A stretch of 64,000 bases of DNA, taken from the NCBI GenBank assembly GCA_024760545.1, contig CP060501.1, positions 186,001-250,000 of the forward strand, written 5' to 3'. Under the pieces are notes generated by a model. The model was not told the origin of the DNA and did no database searches. It worked only from the letters and a program-made list of their open reading frames with translations. Below, one piece after another: positions 8,868 through 15,131 of this stretch; position 1 is the stretch's first letter; every line of letters starts with the position of its first letter. The DNA comes from Nitrospira sp. GTDB lineage: Bacteria; Nitrospirota; Nitrospiria; Nitrospirales; Nitrospiraceae. The position numbers and the translations under genes are program-made.

Positions 8868-9071
8868 ATGGGAGATCAGTGGTCCTTGAGTCAAGAAGAA
8901 GAAGACCTGAATCGCCGGAGTCTGTTTCGCAAGGCGAGAAAGGGCGACGAAAAGGCCAGGCTGGAGTTACAGGAAGTGTACGGCGTGCGATTGTGGTCAG
9001 AGCATGAACGTGCAGAGTTGGTGTATGAAAATCCCCGACACGCTGCCAAGCGCGGTGCCAAGAAGGCTTGA
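8868..9071 (+). CDS. Small charged protein, '63-aa family', copy 1
   Basis: 67 aa, starting at the ATG behind AAAGGAG (a GTG one codon upstream is less well placed). It is one of four related copies here; the others are minus-strand at 12228, 13301 and 14657. The shared core is LFRKARKGDEKARLELQ, then YGVRLWSEHERA-LVYENP, with a lysine-rich tail. This copy and the pseudogene at 14657 share a PRHAA insert before the tail. The family is unknown to me. The basic, helical, very short form and the placement beside repeated attachment-like sites suggest a DNA-binding accessory protein, which is only inference. Confidence 0.65.
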   Translation: MGDQWSLSQEEEDLNRRSLFRKARKGDEKARLELQEVYGVRLWSEHERAELVYENPRHAAKRGAKKA

Positions 9072-9290: not shown

Positions 9291-9383
9291 TGGCGGAGAG
9301 GGAGGGATTTGAACCCTCGGTAGAGATTTTGTCCCTACGACGGTTTAGCAAACCGTTGCCTTCGGCCACTCGGCCACCTCTCC
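9291..9383 (-). tRNA. tRNA-Ser(GCU)
   Basis: The minus strand folds as a class II tRNA: acceptor stem GGAGAGG with CCTCTCC, discriminator G and encoded CCA; anticodon arm ACGGT-TTGCTAA-ACCGT giving anticodon GCT; a long variable arm; T arm GAGGG-TTCAAAT-CCCTC. The anticodon stem-loop is a near-palindrome, typical of tyrosine-recombinase target sites. Fragments of its 5' half recur at 10796, 12671 and 13751. Confidence 0.96.
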
Positions 9384-9705
9384 GCGCCGTACTGGATATG
9401 ATTAGTCAATCACTTAGGAGATTTGCATTCTCTCGTGTTCAGTCGAGTCGACATTTGTCCCATTTTATAGGCCATCCGGTCAACTAGTTTCCGCTCGGAG
9501 GGGAGTGACGCTCTCCTCAACACTCAGATTCACCCTCCAGAACTACGCCAGCGCGTACACGCCCAGGCAGAGATTCCCAGTTGCTCTCAACTGGTGTGAG
9601 GCCATCCAGCAATTCCACTGCCGCCCGTAAAATGTACGTTAGACGATTGAACTACCCTATTGGATCAGTCTGCCTTCAAAAGTCAGTTTTGAGATCCCTC
9701 CCTGA

Positions 9706-9727
9706 TGTGGCCAAACTGTGGCAGAAC
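9706..9727 (+). repeat. Paired 11-bp direct repeat, TGTGGC type, unit 1
   Basis: TGTGGCCAAAC is followed at once by TGTGGCAGAAC. The same pair recurs 76 bp after the tRNA core at 10873-10894 and at 12747-12768. It could be a recombinase or accessory-protein binding site on the cassette left arm. Confidence 0.6.
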
Positions 9728-10016
9728 GATCCTGTCCGACGTGGTTTCATCTGTTCCTTCCATACCCTTTATCCGTCTGAAGGAGCACACTGCATATCCC
9801 ACTTGACGACACGGCCTCTCGGCGCCTAACATCGACGCACGACGTTCCAGCCGCGCTGACTGGCGTGACCTGGAGCTTACCTACCCCTCCAGTCTCCGCC
9901 GCTCTAACGCCAGAATTCATCTACACCTCTCATCAGGAGGCACACTTTGTGTGGCCAATCGTAAATCCGATGGTCTCTTCCCTCTGCTGGAGCGAAGAGA
10001 TGAAAGGAGGGGCATT

Positions 10017-10523
10017 ATGCATCCCATTCTTGTCAGCATCGTTGTGGCGGCGGGTCTTGTGTGGTGTGGGAGCCAAACATTTGCCCATGAAGGCGACCTC
10101 GCTAAGCATTCTGTGCACCAATACCGAACGGTCACGGTCGAGAAGGTCGAATCGGGTTTAGTGTTTTTGGGCCAGCCGACTGGCGTGGGGCAGCGTACGG
10201 TCAGCGTCCACAAAGCTGAGCGCATGGGGCTATTAAACCCAAAGAAAGGCGATGAAGTCATCTTGATAATCGATGAGCACGACATGCTGATTGATCTGCA
10301 TGCGAAAGGAGTTCAGCCCGCAGGACATCGCCTGATCACTGGCAGGCTGACTTATGCGGACCCCACGTGGGAGGTAATTGAGATTTCCAATGCCGAAGGG
10401 AAGCACATGTTGGCGATGGATGAGGATGCGAGCAGCAAGGTGTTCACTATGATGGGCTACGAACTCGTAGTGGCGGAGTTGAACGAAGACAACTTGGTAA
10501 TCGATATCCACCATCTCCGCTAA
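10017..10523 (+). CDS. Exported protein of unknown function (cargo of unit 1)
   Basis: 168 aa from the ATG at 10017, chosen because a strong AAAGGAGG lies 7 nt upstream; a longer frame exists but lacks such a site. The N-terminus is a signal peptide (MHPILVSIVVAAGLVW, cleavage near TFAHE). The mature part contains several His residues and beta-rich segments (VTVEKVESGLVFL, ELVVAELNEDNLVIDIHHLR) and no Cys or haem motif. A periplasmic location is likely; function not recognised. It is the only supported gene in its unit. Confidence 0.75.
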   Translation: MHPILVSIVVAAGLVWCGSQTFAHEGDLAKHSVHQYRTVTVEKVESGLVFLGQPTGVGQRTVSVHKAERMGLLNPKKGDEVILIIDEHDMLIDLHAKGVQPAGHRLITGRLTYADPTWEVIEISNAEGKHMLAMDEDASSKVFTMMGYELVVAELNEDNLVIDIHHLR

Positions 10524-10690
10524 ATGTATGGATGTTGTGTTCACGGTATTTTTGCATGAGAGGGAGGCATTGTTGCGGATCTGCCTTGGATCGACTCAAC
10601 GCTAGGGTAGTGTCTGAGGCAGATCCTTCTGCGACGTTGGCGGATTTCTTAGGCGTCGCGAACGCGGGGGGACGCGCGCCCAGAAAATGA

Positions 10691-10715
10691 CGGAAAACGA
10701 CGGTACAGGACGGTA
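10691..10715 (+). repeat. 10-bp-phased CGG(T/A)A iterons, right end of unit 1
   Basis: CGGAA at 10691, then CGGTA at 10701 and 10711, exactly 10 bp apart. The last is 86 bp before the tRNA core at 10797. The arrangement matches the iteron blocks at 12554 and 13634. Confidence 0.7.
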
Positions 10716-10795
10716 ACGCCAGTTGCAACGTTACAGCTAGTGTTTATGCTGTGTTTCGAGTCTTTTGGCGAAGTTCGAGATGGACCATTTCGGGA

Positions 10796-10835
10796 TTTAG
10801 CAAACCGTTGCCTTCGGCCACTCGGCCACCTCTCC
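10796..10835 (-). repeat. tRNA-Ser 5'-half fragment B (attachment-like site)
   Basis: 40 bp identical to the tRNA gene from the anticodon loop to the first base of the acceptor stem (starts TTTAGCAAACCG on the plus strand). The tRNA 3' half is absent, so it is not a functional tRNA. The perfect match suggests a recent or maintained site. Confidence 0.9.
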
Positions 10836-10872
10836 CTGAGCACCGCACGACTTATTCAGCTTGTCGCTGACT

Positions 10873-10894
10873 TGTAGCCAAACTGTGGCAGAAC
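10873..10894 (+). repeat. Paired 11-bp direct repeat, TGTGGC type, unit 2
   Basis: TGTAGCCAAAC followed by TGTGGCAGAAC, 76 bp after the tRNA core. Same spacing as in unit 3. Confidence 0.6.
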
Positions 10895-11001
10895 GATGCC
10901 AGCCATAGATTCCTCGTCCCCACCGACATTGACATGCCGTGCTTGAGTCGGTAGCATCACTTGCCCCACGTTGAACACACTGCCGACGGCCGAATGGAAG
11001 G

Positions 11002-11035
11002 CCAGTCCGCCGACTCTGTGAGAAAGGCGAACTGG
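11002..11035 (+). promoter_or_regulatory. Leader hairpin a, ending 1 nt before the start codon
   Basis: CCAGTCCGCC (11002-11011) pairs with GGCGAACTGG (11026-11035), 9 of 10 positions, around the loop GACTCTGTGAGAAA. The ATG is at 11037, so the purine-rich ribosome-binding region lies in the loop and 3' arm. Leader b has different bases that still pair, which supports a real RNA structure. Confidence 0.6.
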
Positions 11036-11036
11036 T

Positions 11037-11390
11037 ATGCTCCCTCTACGTACAGAACTCAGCGACTATTCCCGCGCGTGCGAACGCCTCATTGCTGCCG
11101 CGGCATCCGCCGATGACACTGCGTTCACCCAAGACGAGACTGATTGGATCGCGTATTACGTGGCTGAGATGACCAATCTGGTCGACCAGCTCGTGCGTAA
11201 ATTAAAAGCTCAGGTCCTCCGCGACCGGGAAACGCTCCAAGCATTCGCCGTCGCCTCCGAGGCGTTGTTCCTCACGGATACTCTTTCGAAAGGGGAGCGA
11301 GACAGCATCCGCCACTCGGTCTCCTATGTAACAAGGAAGATTCTCGTTGAAAAGGATGGTCCAGCGGGAGACCCGTCCATCGAGGGGTGA
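11037..11390 (+). CDS. Unknown helical protein, '117-aa family', copy a
   Basis: 117 aa, no signal peptide or membrane segment. It is one of three paralogues in this block. The family pattern is MLPLR-E--DYS--CE-LIAAA, then FTQDE-DWI-YY--EMTN-VDQLVRK and F-(I/V)ASEALFLTD-LS-GE-DSIR-S-S-VT. It looks all-helical and cytoplasmic. Function is not recognised. The gene follows a conserved hairpin leader, and its second copy starts 471 bp downstream, so a tandem duplication of leader plus gene is likely. Confidence 0.75.
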   Translation: MLPLRTELSDYSRACERLIAAAASADDTAFTQDETDWIAYYVAEMTNLVDQLVRKLKAQVLRDRETLQAFAVASEALFLTDTLSKGERDSIRHSVSYVTRKILVEKDGPAGDPSIEG

Positions 11391-11474
11391 TGTAGGCCCC
11401 TTGACATCACTTTTTCATCGGTTCAACCTACAACTCTACCCTAGCCACATCTGCCGACGGCCTCATGGAAGGCC

Positions 11475-11506
11475 CGACCGCCGACTTGTGTGAGAAAAGG
11501 CGGTCG
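11475..11506 (+). promoter_or_regulatory. Leader hairpin b
   Basis: CGACCGCC (11475-11482) pairs perfectly with GGCGGTCG (11499-11506) around a GACTTGTGTGAGAAAA-like loop. The GTG start of the next gene is at 11508, again one base after the stem. Compared with leader a, several stem bases change together. Confidence 0.6.
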
Positions 11507-11507
11507 C

Positions 11508-11855
11508 GTGACGATACCTCTCCGAAAAGAAATCAGGGACTATTCCTCCTTTTGCGAACATCTCATTGCTGCAGCGGTTTCGCCAGATTCCATTCCCTTT
11601 ACTCAGGACGAGATTGACTGGATATCGTATTACACCGCTGAGATGACCAACGTTGTCGACCAGCTCGTCCGTAAATCCAAAACTCAGGGGCTACACCACC
11701 GGCAAACGATACGAGACTTCGCCATCGCCTCCGAGGCCTTGTTCCTCACGGATGGCCTCTCGGAAGGGGAGAAAGACAGCATCCGCCAATCGCTCTCCGA
11801 TGTCACAAAGAAGATTCTCGATGAACAGGAAGATCCTGTATTGGAGCGGTCGTGA
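11508..11855 (+). CDS. Unknown helical protein, '117-aa family', copy b
   Basis: 115 aa, starting at GTG 11508. This start is chosen because it sits at the same place relative to the leader hairpin as the ATG of copy a, and because the encoded VTIPLRKEIRDYS aligns with MLPLRTELSDYS. It keeps the FTQDEIDWISYYTAEMTN and SEALFLTDGLSEGEKDSIR blocks. Reading may continue upstream into the leader, but that would break the hairpin geometry. Confidence 0.72.
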   Translation: MTIPLRKEIRDYSSFCEHLIAAAVSPDSIPFTQDEIDWISYYTAEMTNVVDQLVRKSKTQGLHHRQTIRDFAIASEALFLTDGLSEGEKDSIRQSLSDVTKKILDEQEDPVLERS

Positions 11856-11936
11856 GCGACTTGACGCAGTCCTCCAATCTCGTCAGACTGCTTTTTCATC
11901 CTCACACACAACTGCCGGCGACATCCTAAAAGGCTC

Positions 11937-11963
11937 GACCGCCGACTCGTGGGAAAGGCGGTC
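11937..11963 (+). promoter_or_regulatory. Orphan leader hairpin d
   Basis: GACCGCC (11937-11943) pairs with GGCGGTC (11957-11963) around a 13-nt loop like that of leaders a and b. No 117-aa gene follows; a 61-codon frame begins with a GTG inside the loop. Confidence 0.5.
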
Positions 11964-12134
11964 AACGTCATTAGCCTTTTTATCCTTCGAACAGACAAGA
12001 ACGGCAACCGCTGGGAGATTAGACTTCGAGCAGATGGGACGACTGAACACCGCCGAGAGGGCCGAACGGACTGGCTGGAAGGATGGGCTCCTACGCTGCC
12101 ACTGCCAAAACAGACAGAGATACCGGATCAATGA
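11949..12134 (+). CDS. Possible small protein behind orphan leader
   Basis: 61 codons from a GTG in the hairpin loop. The segment NRWEIRLRADGTTEHRREGRTDWLEGW reads like a genuine, charged small protein. Start choice is weak because the purine-rich region lies after the GTG. It may have replaced a third 117-aa copy in the duplicated leader-gene unit. No homologue recognised. Confidence 0.35.
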   Translation: MGKAVNVISLFILRTDKNGNRWEIRLRADGTTEHRREGRTDWLEGWAPTLPLPKQTEIPDQ

Positions 12135-12227
12135 TCGTGACCGGATCGCCATTATAAGACGAGAGGGGGGCAAAAGGGGGTAATTCTCCGTTTCTAGCGA
12201 GACTCACAATTTTCCATATAGGGATTC

Positions 12228-12419
12228 TTAAGCCTTCTGCTTTCCGCGTTTGGTGTTGTCATAGACCAACTTTGCACGTTCCTTCTCTGACCAGAGTCGC
12301 ACGCCATAGTCTTCTTGTAATTCCAACCTGGCTTTGTCGTCTCCCTTTCTCGCCTTGCGAAACAGACTCTGGCGATGCTCGTCTTCTTCCTCTTGATTTC
12401 CAGACCACGGGTGAGCCAT
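12228..12419 (-). CDS. Small charged protein, '63-aa family', copy 2
   Basis: 63 aa (MAHPWSGNQEEEDEHRQ then the family core). The ATG follows AAAGGA. It is transcribed leftward, away from the iterons at 12554-12588, so its promoter region lies between gene and iterons. The same gene-plus-iteron block of ~370 bp is repeated at 13301-13668 and at 14657-15030. Confidence 0.7.
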   Translation of the reverse strand: MAHPWSGNQEEEDEHRQSLFRKARKGDDKARLELQEDYGVRLWSEKERAKLVYDNTKRGKQKA

Positions 12420-12553
12420 CTCGATTCCTTTGTTGATGGTTACTCTTTCCGTGAGACTACCGTGATGGAGACGGGGTTGATAACGAGTGTGATCCCCAGC
12501 TCAAGGGGAGAAAAAGCGGAGTGAAAAGCGTAGTGAATGAAACCGGGAAATGG

Positions 12554-12588
12554 CGGTAAATCGCGGTAATTAACGGTAGACGGCGGTA
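12554..12588 (+). repeat. Four CGGTA iterons at 10-bp spacing, right end of unit 2
   Basis: CGGTA at 12554, 12564, 12574 and 12584, one helical turn apart. The last is 87 bp before tRNA core C. An upstream block (GTGAAAAGCGTAGTGAAT) is also shared by units 3 and 4. Confidence 0.8.
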
Positions 12589-12670
12589 CTCACGAGAGCA
12601 GGGGAATCGCCAGTGTTTGAGCGGTGTTGCGAAGTTTCTCAGGGAGTTACGGCGCGGTGCTCAGGGCGAG

Positions 12671-12709
12671 TTAGCAAACCGTTGCCTTCGGCCACTCGGC
12701 CACCTCTCC
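12671..12709 (-). repeat. tRNA-Ser 5'-half fragment C (attachment-like site)
   Basis: 39 bp identical to the tRNA gene from TTAGCAA to the end of the 5' acceptor strand. The sequence before TTAGCAA differs from the tRNA, which places the crossover at or after the anticodon loop. Confidence 0.9.
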
Positions 12710-12746
12710 CTGAGCGCCGCACGACTTATTCACCTTGTTGCTGACT

Positions 12747-12768
12747 TGTGGCCAAACCGTGGCAGAAC
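12747..12768 (+). repeat. Paired 11-bp direct repeat, TGTGGC type, unit 3
   Basis: TGTGGCCAAAC followed by CGTGGCAGAAC, 76 bp after the tRNA core, as in unit 2. Confidence 0.6.
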
Positions 12769-12891
12769 TATCCTGGCCATAGGTTCTTCGTCCCCACCGC
12801 CATTGACACGCCCTGCTCAGCGGGGTAGCATTTTATACTTAGATCAGATACACATAGCCGTCCGCCGACTCTGTAACAAAGACCAACTGGC

Positions 12892-13218
12892 ATGCTTCCT
12901 CTTCGTAAACAGATCAATGACTACTCCCGCTCGTGCGAGCATCTCATCGCTGCGGCCGCAGAGATCGATGCCATTCCGTTTACTCAAGACGAGATTGATT
13001 GGATCGTCTATTACACGACGGAGATGACCAGCCTGGTCGACCAGCTCGTGCGTAAATCTAAAACTCAGGTCCTACACGACCGGCAAACGATCCAAGAGTT
13101 CGCCGTTGCCTCCGAGGCGCTGTTCCTCACGAAAGGCCTTTCGGAAGGGGAGAGAGACAGCATCCGCCACTCGGTCTCCGATGTGACCACGAACATTCTG
13201 GATGAACAGGAGCGGTAA
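12892..13218 (+). CDS. Unknown helical protein, '117-aa family', copy c
   Basis: 108 aa, from the ATG at 12892, which aligns with copies a and b (MLPLRKQINDYSRSCEHLI). The C-terminus is shorter, ending LDEQER. The leader before it keeps the loop bases (GACTCTGTAACAAA) but the stem has largely decayed, so hairpin control may be lost here. Cytoplasmic, function unknown. Confidence 0.73.
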   Translation: MLPLRKQINDYSRSCEHLIAAAAEIDAIPFTQDEIDWIVYYTTEMTSLVDQLVRKSKTQVLHDRQTIQEFAVASEALFLTKGLSEGERDSIRHSVSDVTTNILDEQER

Positions 13219-13300
13219 AAAGCGAAGCGATATTCGGGGAGACATCGTTAGGTATAGGGTGGGTAACCGGCAGGGTTCACAATTTTCCGTATCGGGATTC

Positions 13301-13492
13301 TCAAGCCTTCTTCTTACCGCGTTTGGGATTTTCATAAACCAACTTTGCACGTTCATGCTCTGACCAGAGTCGCACGCCATAGACGTCTTGTAATTCCAAC
13401 CTGGCTTTCTCGTCGCCCTTTCTCGCCTTTCGAAACAGACCCTGGCGATGCACGTCTTCTTCTTCTTGACTCAGAGACCACCGTTGGGCCAT
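13301..13492 (-). CDS. Small charged protein, '63-aa family', copy 3
   Basis: 63 aa (MAQRWSLSQEEEDVHRQ, then LFRKARKGDEKARLELQ). The upstream region CAAGGAGTCGAA is close to that of copies 1, 2 and 4. It sits at the right end of unit 3, reading away from the iterons, and is the copy closest to the family consensus. Confidence 0.72.
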   Translation of the reverse strand: MAQRWSLSQEEEDVHRQGLFRKARKGDEKARLELQDVYGVRLWSEHERAKLVYENPKRGKKKA

Positions 13493-13633
13493 TTCGACTC
13501 CTTGGTTGAGGGTTGCTCTTTCCGTGAGGGCGTCTTAAACGGAGGCGGGAGTAGACAGTCAGTCTGACCCTATTAAGGGGCTGCGTCAAGGAAAAGTGGA
13601 GTGAAAAGCGTAGTGAATTAATCCGGGAAATGG

Positions 13634-13668
13634 CGGTAAAGCGCGGTAATTAACGGTACACCGGGGTA
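13634..13668 (+). repeat. Four 10-bp-phased iterons, right end of unit 3
   Basis: CGGTA at 13634, 13644 and 13654 and GGGTA at 13664. Fragment D begins 87 bp after the last one, the same distance as for fragment C. Confidence 0.78.
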
Positions 13669-13750
13669 CTCACCAACGCAATAGAATCCACAATGTTTAA
13701 GCGGTCTTGCAAAGTTTATCAGGGAGTTATGTCGCGGTGCTCACGGCGAG

Positions 13751-13809
13751 TTAGCAAACTGTTGCCACTCGGCCACCTCTCCGCGCCGTACTGGATATGA
13801 TTAGTCAAT
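13751..13809 (-). repeat. tRNA-Ser 5'-half fragment D with its upstream flank
   Basis: Matches 9345-9410 of the intact tRNA locus, including 27 bp outside the tRNA (GCGCCGTACTGGATATGATT and on), but has lost 7 bp in the D-arm and carries a C-to-T change. It is a decayed remnant, older than B and C, and either the original tRNA 5' flank or the end of an older unit. Confidence 0.88.
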
Positions 13810-14088
13810 TGTGTGGGAGATATGCATTTTCGAACATCCGGCAACTTGTTCACGCCCAGGTCAGCGCGCACGTTGTAAACTCCCAACCCCTGTGTTACGG
13901 TTCCTTCGCCGTCGTACGGGCCTTGCGACGAAGCCGGTTTGAGAAAGGCTCGGATCATCGATGTTGCCTTGTCCGGGAATTCTGTCGGAAGTCAGACCTG
14001 AGTCGCCGTATTGCCCGCGTCTTCGGCCCGCTGCTTCCCTCCGTTCCTCCAGTTCAAGACAATGTCTTCATTCAAGGAGGAACTCCAC

Positions 14089-14424
14089 ATGGGTTCGAAG
14101 CTTTATGTCGGTGGGTTGCCGTATTCGGTGACCGAGCAGCAGTTGACCGAAACATTCGGAGCACATGGCACGGTGGCTTCGGCGAGGATCATCTCAGACA
14201 AGTTCACGGGACAGTCGCGTGGATTTGGTTTCGTGGAGATGTCCTCGGATGCTGAGGCGCAAGCCGCGATCACGGCACTTCATGGGACGGAGATGGGAGG
14301 CCGCACGTTAACGGTCAATGAAGCGAAACCCATGGAGCAGCGTTCTGGAGGTGGTGGTGGATTCGGTAGCGGCGGAGGCCGTCCAGGTGGCCGTAGTGGC
14401 GGTGGAAAGCGTGACCGCTGGTAG
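14089..14424 (+). CDS. RRM-domain RNA-binding protein
   Basis: 111 aa, starting at ATG 14089 behind AAGGAGG. One RNA recognition motif: RNP2 KLYVGGLPY (residues 4-12) and RNP1 RGFGFVEM (44-51). A glycine-rich tail with Arg and Ser follows (about 85-111). This is the common bacterial/cyanobacterial cold-shock-type RRM protein, a single-stranded RNA binder in the cytoplasm. The long GC-rich leader after fragment D could matter for expression. It lies inside the decayed unit 4, so it may be cargo or an old chromosomal neighbour. Confidence 0.92.
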   Translation: MGSKLYVGGLPYSVTEQQLTETFGAHGTVASARIISDKFTGQSRGFGFVEMSSDAEAQAAITALHGTEMGGRTLTVNEAKPMEQRSGGGGGFGSGGGRPGGRSGGGKRDRW

Positions 14425-14656: not shown

Positions 14657-14857
14657 TCAAGCCTTTCGGTTACCGCGTTCGGCAGCATGTCGGGGATTTT
14701 CATAGACCAACTTTGCGCGTTCATGCTCTGACTATAGTCGCACGCCATAGACGTCTTGTAATTCCAACTTGGCTTTCTCGTCGCCCTTTCTCGCCTTTCG
14801 AAACAGACCCTGGCGATGCAGGTCTTCTTCTTGACTCAGAGACCACCGTTGGGCCAT
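14657..14857 (-). pseudogene. 63-aa family, copy 4, with in-frame amber codon
   Basis: The frame from ATG 14857 encodes MAQRWSLSQEEDLHRQ and the family core, but a TAG at 14734-14732 replaces the conserved Trp of VRLWSEHERA (residue 42). Beyond it the frame continues with SEHERAKLVYENPRHAA to a stop at 14657. The single base change and otherwise intact frame suggest recent inactivation. Confidence 0.75.
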
Positions 14858-14995: not shown

Positions 14996-15030
14996 CGGTA
15001 AATCGAGGCAATTAACGGTAGACGGCGGTA
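14996..15030 (+). repeat. Decayed iteron block at the right end of unit 4
   Basis: CGGTA at 14996, 15016 and 15026; the site expected at 15006 reads GAGGCA. Phasing of 10 bp is kept. The tRNA core expected 87 bp further on is not recognisable. Confidence 0.65.
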
Positions 15031-15131
15031 CGCACCACAGCAGGGAAATCGCCAGTGTTTAATAGGTCTTGCGAGGGTTTTCAGCAGGCTAGGTCAAGGC
15101 GGCCAACGCCATTGAGTAGTATGAGGAAGGA

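Follow-up and report, generated by a model that had tools for sequence, protein, structure and literature searches.

The tRNA-Ser(GCU) gene in the window, the 64,000-nucleotide stretch of the Nitrospira sp. genome analysed here, very probably has, on its 5′ side, four stacked non-autonomous units of a tyrosine-integrase element family, which use the 5′ half of the tRNA as their attachment site and have displaced the native flank and promoter of the gene. The intact gene is a composite, with a chromosomal 3′ half and an element-borne 5′ half and flank. In the textbook case of integration into a tRNA gene, the tRNA retains its own promoter. To place the window in its genus we used a comparison set of 79 genomes that includes the window's own genome (G000) and that of a second strain of the same species (G065). 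The polarity of integration, the boundaries of the units, the displacement of native flanks and the geometry of the integrases are evident at the level of sequence.

Displaced 5′ halves upstream of tRNA-Ser(GCU)

ARAGORN identified a single tRNA in the window, tRNA-Ser(GCU), at 9291–9383 on the minus strand. The window contains exactly four copies each of its anticodon-side 16-mer and of its acceptor-side 18-mer, compared with 0.02 and 0.07 copies expected by chance, respectively. The original prediction held that every extra copy is a 5′ half of the tRNA, and this was borne out: the array contains three displaced halves, all in the same orientation and all on the 5′ side of the gene, and no copy of the 3′ half. 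Similarly, blasting the whole tRNA against the copy of the locus in G065 returned only nucleotides 1–40, 1–39 and 1–19. The window array thus has the layout by which a tDNA island is recognized, an intact tDNA with an upstream fragment of the same orientation that reaches the 5′ end. Two types of flank adjoin the tRNA halves, X in units 1 and 4 and Y in units 2 and 3, and the features of the array are as follows.

9291..9383, minus strand: intact tRNA-Ser(GCU), the sole intact copy found in the genome
9384..9628: X-type upstream flank, forming the proximal end of unit 1, with 95.9% identity to G065
9951..10523, plus strand: unit 1 cargo, 190-aa protein, no Pfam match
10685..10795: unit 1 arm of CGGTA iterons with a period of about 10 bp, running up to the core
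10796..10835, minus strand: displaced tRNA-Ser(GCU) 5′ half, nucleotides 1–40, 100% identity over 40 nt
10836..11036: Y-type flank, proximal end of unit 2
11037..11855, plus strand: unit 2 cargo, two paralogous genes of the 108-aa family (11037–11390 and 11490–11855)
12231..12419, minus strand: unit 2 63-aa edge gene, reading in the same direction as the displaced tRNA 5′ half
12554..12588: unit 2 iterons, four CGGTA repeats with a 10-bp period
12670..12709, minus strand: displaced tRNA-Ser(GCU) 5′ half, 98% identity
12710..12891: Y-type flank, proximal end of unit 3
12892..13218, plus strand: unit 3 cargo, 108-aa family
13304..13492, minus strand: unit 3 63-aa edge gene
13634..13668: unit 3 iterons
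13751..13782, minus strand: fragment D, a displaced 5′ half damaged by one substitution and the loss of 7 nt (TTCGGCC)
13783..13831: X-type flank of unit 4, matching that of the intact gene exactly over its first 27 bp
14011..14424, plus strand: unit 4 cargo, RRM RNA-binding protein
14678..14857, minus strand: unit 4 63-aa edge gene, interrupted by TAG
14996..15128: decayed unit 4 arm with iteron remnants, without core or tRNA half

Units 1–3 share one plan, in which a tRNA 5′ half is followed by flank, cargo and an arm of CGGTA repeats with a 10-bp period, the arm sitting about 100 bp ahead of the core where the next tRNA 5′ half starts. The original prediction had ended the array at 13809; instead, it continues into a decayed fourth unit (13783 to about 15130), which contains the RRM gene, small genes and iterons without a core. 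The 27-bp flank that fragment D was said to have in common with the intact gene is an exact match (9384–9410 and 13783–13809), which fades into a 49-bp stretch at 86–88% identity. With a fourth unit reaching about 15130, fragment D has as its flank the proximal end of unit 4, and the sequence that it has in common with the intact gene most plausibly represents the element-borne ends of units 4 and 1, not an original chromosomal flank. The different flank reported for units 2 and 3 was also recovered: the two score z = 14 against each other and z about 0 against the one beside the intact gene, to which they are unrelated. The possibility raised with the original prediction that the promoter lies in bases common to both flank types fails, as X and Y have 0 common bases beside the tRNA and align no better than shuffles. 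None of the 63-aa, 108-aa and 190-aa products had a Pfam match above the cut-off.

The array in G065 is as in the window except for unit 1, which measures 5.2 kb compared with 1.45 kb. In place of the 190-aa protein, it carries a 1381-aa helix-turn-helix (HTH) protein and a small element gene conserved in relatives, and sequence common to both versions of the unit is confined to 245 bp at the proximal end (96%) and 151 bp at the distal end (91%). The X flank of unit 1 (9384–9628) was absent from the other 77 genus genomes searched. The 1381-aa HTH protein (L034:1567–5712) matches phrog_18693, a family of unknown function, and is possibly a defence gene.

Two further sets of features accompany the locus. 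The 63-aa edge genes at 12231–12419 and 13304–13492 begin about 250 bp downstream of displaced 5′ halves and read in the same direction, and an inverted relative with 69% identity lies on the 3′ side of the tRNA (8871–9047, plus strand). On the 3′ side of tRNA-Ser(GCU) in G065, the N terminus of a DUF6538 integrase (L034:328–618) ends at transposase-like sequence and the contig end, and a 17-nt tRNA 3′ fragment is found on another contig (L142:11112–11128); together these are a separate 3′-type element. We rejected the DUF6538 integrase as the motor of the array, as its relatives in G036 (tRNA-His) and G056 (tRNA-Leu) adjoin displaced 3′ ends, with the 17-nt 3′ fragment elsewhere in G065 arguing further against it.

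Flank replacement and full-length relatives

A native tRNA-Ser(GCU) flank is common to many congeners, and a flank other than this one stands beside the gene in G000, G065, G052, G054 and G064. We counted replacement only in congeners with element traces, as distant congeners differ by ordinary divergence too. In G073, the native flank was found displaced, at a decayed 5′ half. About 90 bp of the element-borne flank are conserved in G052, G054 and G064, which represent three species, with the sequence farther upstream scrambled. This conservation, the only indication that the new flank may be functional, fits selection on a promoter without proving it. In G066, a tRNA-Ser(GCU) 5′ part with a native-like flank is present (L046:4400–4492); we found no recognizable GCU 3′ part and matched no other copy in that genome.

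A second replacement is found in the window's own genome, outside the window. Its tRNA-Ser(UGA) gene holds a 16.3-kb element, and an exact 41-bp 5′ half (nucleotides 1–41) has moved 16.3 kb away, where it carries the native flank of intact UGA genes in relatives (z = 12 and z = 10). With the UGA flank 16.3 kb off and the GCU flanks replaced, the sequence supports the original prediction that an incoming unit would replace the promoter region of the tRNA. The frame of a 447-aa integrase passes through the whole tRNA-Ser(UGA) (L394:1398–2741; G000:C1:4299398–4300741), so that the host tRNA encodes the C terminus of the integrase. An integrase overlapping tRNA-Ser(UGA) was also seen in three other genomes, with different C termini in two. 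As one intact GCU and one intact UGA tRNA gene were matched in G000, both tRNAs depend on their present upstream DNA.

The iteron pattern occurs in 14 of the 79 genomes, mostly beside 5′ halves of tRNA-Ser(GCU) or tRNA-Ser(UGA), with control matches numbering at most one per genome. A complete, integrase-bearing element of 14.7 kb resides in tRNA-Arg(CCU) of G037: the integrase stop lies just upstream of nucleotide 1 of the tRNA, an exact copy of nucleotides 1–39 lies 14.6 kb away, and between them are a primase, a terminase-like protein and a pair of genes of a cyclic-oligonucleotide-based antiphage signalling system (CBASS). The pair consists of a patatin-like effector and a DncV-like cyclase (L215:10822–13228). 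A search of named genomes gave a single match, the G037 element in Nitrospira sp. ACE_NIT7. The 357-aa tyrosine integrase of G036 terminates about 12 bp short of a tRNA-Ser(UGA) 5′ half, and intact tRNA-Ser genes have C-terminal integrase remnants immediately upstream in G034, G077, G052 and G054, the G034 unit also carrying a GajB-like helicase. Integrases of the relatives match the Phage_integrase and PHROG integrase families. The G037 and G036 elements each combine integrase, primase and terminase-like protein, and no capsid gene was noticed in the frames scanned, which were a part of the total.

Integration in the opposite direction in related genomes, which would have spoken against the original prediction, was not the pattern observed: the relatives integrate with equal polarity, apart from an element in tRNA-Thr(UGU) of G064. 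That element restores the 3′ half, with nucleotides 29–76 displaced (L140:10251–10298, L217:5480–5555). In a tree, the 357-aa integrases join its integrase at 100/100, with long branches that make the depth of the join uncertain, and the terminase-like proteins of the G064 and G036 elements are 71% identical. Because the 3′-half element is related in both integrase and terminase, polarity differs within one lineage; it is not fixed in the wider lineage and appears to have switched within a single integrase/terminase lineage. A relative of the 108-aa family is also found inside the G064 element.

We considered a UGA 5′ half upstream of lexA as a non-tRNA integration site and rejected it, the junction being common to eight genomes; by eye, the adjacent DNA resembles an old element arm, and we read the half as a displaced fragment. 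In IMG/VR, terminase-like proteins were found at 26–53% identity, none near a matching integrase, and an integrase scan was empty; an iteron scan gave 96 stretches, with no tRNA-Ser half in the loci examined. A literature search found no paper on such elements in Nitrospira.

Alternative origins and known systems

Homologous recombination could in principle have built the array without an integrase, by duplicating the 5′ region of the tRNA in tandem, and the paralogous genes and flanks of units 2 and 3, at 73–90% identity, would fit such an origin. However, units 1 and 4 carry cargo with no relationship to what units 2 and 3 hold, the cargo of unit 1 differs between the two strains while its ends are conserved, and the iteron arm and core recur at other tRNA genes and in other genomes, some with an integrase, such that we consider duplication very improbable. 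Slightly less credible still is an integron-like process, in which a fixed integrase beside the tRNA collects gene cassettes at tRNA-derived sites. Small integrase-less units in a row with exchangeable cargo are what such a process would leave, and the 13-bp inverted repeat enclosing the 5′ half in the Y-type units and the integrase remnants that remain beside the tRNA in several genomes are also in its favour, but the full-length relatives are complete elements with the integrase inside the displaced segment, the iteron arms resemble phage attP arms and the integrase is of the ordinary phage integrase family. In place of the IntI-type integrase and attC sites that define an integron, we found phage-type integrases and iteron arms, no attC-specific model having been run. 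An ordinary 3′-half integration system with its direction misread would agree with most integrases of this kind in the genus being convergent with tRNA 3′ ends, and with the DUF6538 fragment on the tRNA 3′ side and the 17-nt 3′ fragment in G065, but it is already refuted for the array, which consists of 5′ halves only, all upstream, and whose integrase-bearing relatives share its polarity and have exact 39- and 41-bp 5′-half copies; we give it the least credence.

Several observations weigh against a stack of integrated units. We found no cognate integrase of the 357-aa clade in G000 or G065, the best match being a 3′-type integrase at 35% identity, and for this reason the window array may be inert and its units immobile relics. 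Without the native GCU flank, the original chromosomal one, which we did not find anywhere in the window, the first insertion cannot here be traced back to an empty site. A scan for consensus sigma-70 promoters, which found 3 sites where 3.3 were expected, placed none in the X flank upstream of the tRNA. Finally, the arms of units 2 and 3 are unlike that of unit 1 near the core, and the model does not account for the inverted repeat bracketing the tRNA 5′ half in Y-type units (GCGGTGCTCAGGG / CCCTGAGCACCGC; 10825–10846 and 12654–12675).

Among 3919 islands in the Islander catalogue, 3760 have 3′ fragments and 159 have 5′ fragments (PMC4383910). The 5′-fragment islands resemble the stack in having an intact tRNA gene with a displaced upstream 5′ fragment in the same orientation (PMC4383910), and in their tyrosine integrase, found here in the full-length relatives in G037 and G036 and in the UGA element of the window's own genome. 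Membership in the catalogue requires an integrase and an island length of 2–200 kb. The window units, in contrast, are stacked, measure 1.1–1.9 kb each, below the 2-kb minimum, and yielded no integrase frame or remnant, and Islander would miss them because it requires an integrase and at least 2 kb; unit 1 of G065 reaches 5.2 kb and the relatives 14–16 kb.

According to a review of archaeal recombinases, bacterial recombinant tRNAs nearly always retain their promoter, the archaeal exception being pTN3-like elements (PMC8371274). In pTN3, a 41-bp shared site covers the tRNA 5′ half and the restored tRNA is parted from its original promoter (PMC5495485, PMC8371274), with the integrase promoter, per the review, expressing the tRNA (PMC8371274). 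The UGA element in G000 appears to be of this kind, its attP corresponding to the tRNA 5′ half and the native promoter region being separated, and in both systems the attachment site overlaps the integrase gene. The Nitrospira elements differ in their bacterial host and their integrases, and whereas pTN3 integration splits the integrase gene, the Nitrospira integrase frame stays open and only its C terminus changes. Phage satellites (P4-like, or like phage-inducible chromosomal islands) are comparable to the full-length relatives in size (14–15 kb), integrase, primase and defence cargo (CBASS in G037), but the relatives carry a terminase-like large protein and the window units are mere remnants without integrase or primase. 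ICEKp1 likewise rewires, by integration, the promoter serving a gene at a tRNA attachment site, but its tRNA keeps its promoter and drives the integrase, whereas the Nitrospira tRNA loses its native promoter region (PMC13023037).

Proposed mechanism and consequences

We propose that the attachment site carries tRNA nucleotides 1 to about 40, with its end in the anticodon loop, and that strand exchange takes place near this loop. The 3′ half from the chromosome would thereby be joined to a 5′ half from the element, leaving the tRNA whole, and the native 5′ half and the upstream DNA with its promoter would move to the far end of the element. Full-length relatives have their integrase directly upstream of the tRNA and reading into it, along with a primase, a terminase-like protein and defence cargo. 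The tRNA would then be transcribed from element DNA, by read-through from the integrase or from a promoter in the element end. The position of strand exchange, the promoter activity of the new flanks with any change in tRNA level, and mobilization in trans are what we infer. Two points of entry are conceivable for a unit, the intact tRNA and a displaced 5′ half. The second is suggested by G036, in which the integrase-side 5′ half abuts an apparent older arm upstream of lexA, and the X-Y-Y-X order in the window would follow from insertion of units 2 and 3 at the displaced half that lay between units 1 and 4.

A displaced tRNA promoter could drive the 63-aa edge genes, an arrangement that is not universal in relatives. 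More speculatively, and on balance doubtfully, promoter capture might act as a tether: with the native promoter of a sole-copy, essential tRNA displaced and decayed, the cell could not lose the proximal end of the element, and the displaced promoter would read inward, driving edge genes and free transcripts of the tRNA 5′ half. If true, domesticated ends would outlive the integrase, as in G052, G054 and G064.

Integration through a 5′ half is a known but rare mechanism; what is new is this element family in Nitrospira, the stacking of its units and the evidence, from comparison of genomes, that flanks are replaced. Mobile units in an essential tRNA gene would bring their own 5′ half and upstream DNA, placing the tRNA behind element-supplied DNA. 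One bacterial genus offers many natural upstream replacements at sole-copy tRNA-Ser genes, and because empty, occupied and decayed states coexist side by side, the effect of insertion on tRNA supply is directly testable.

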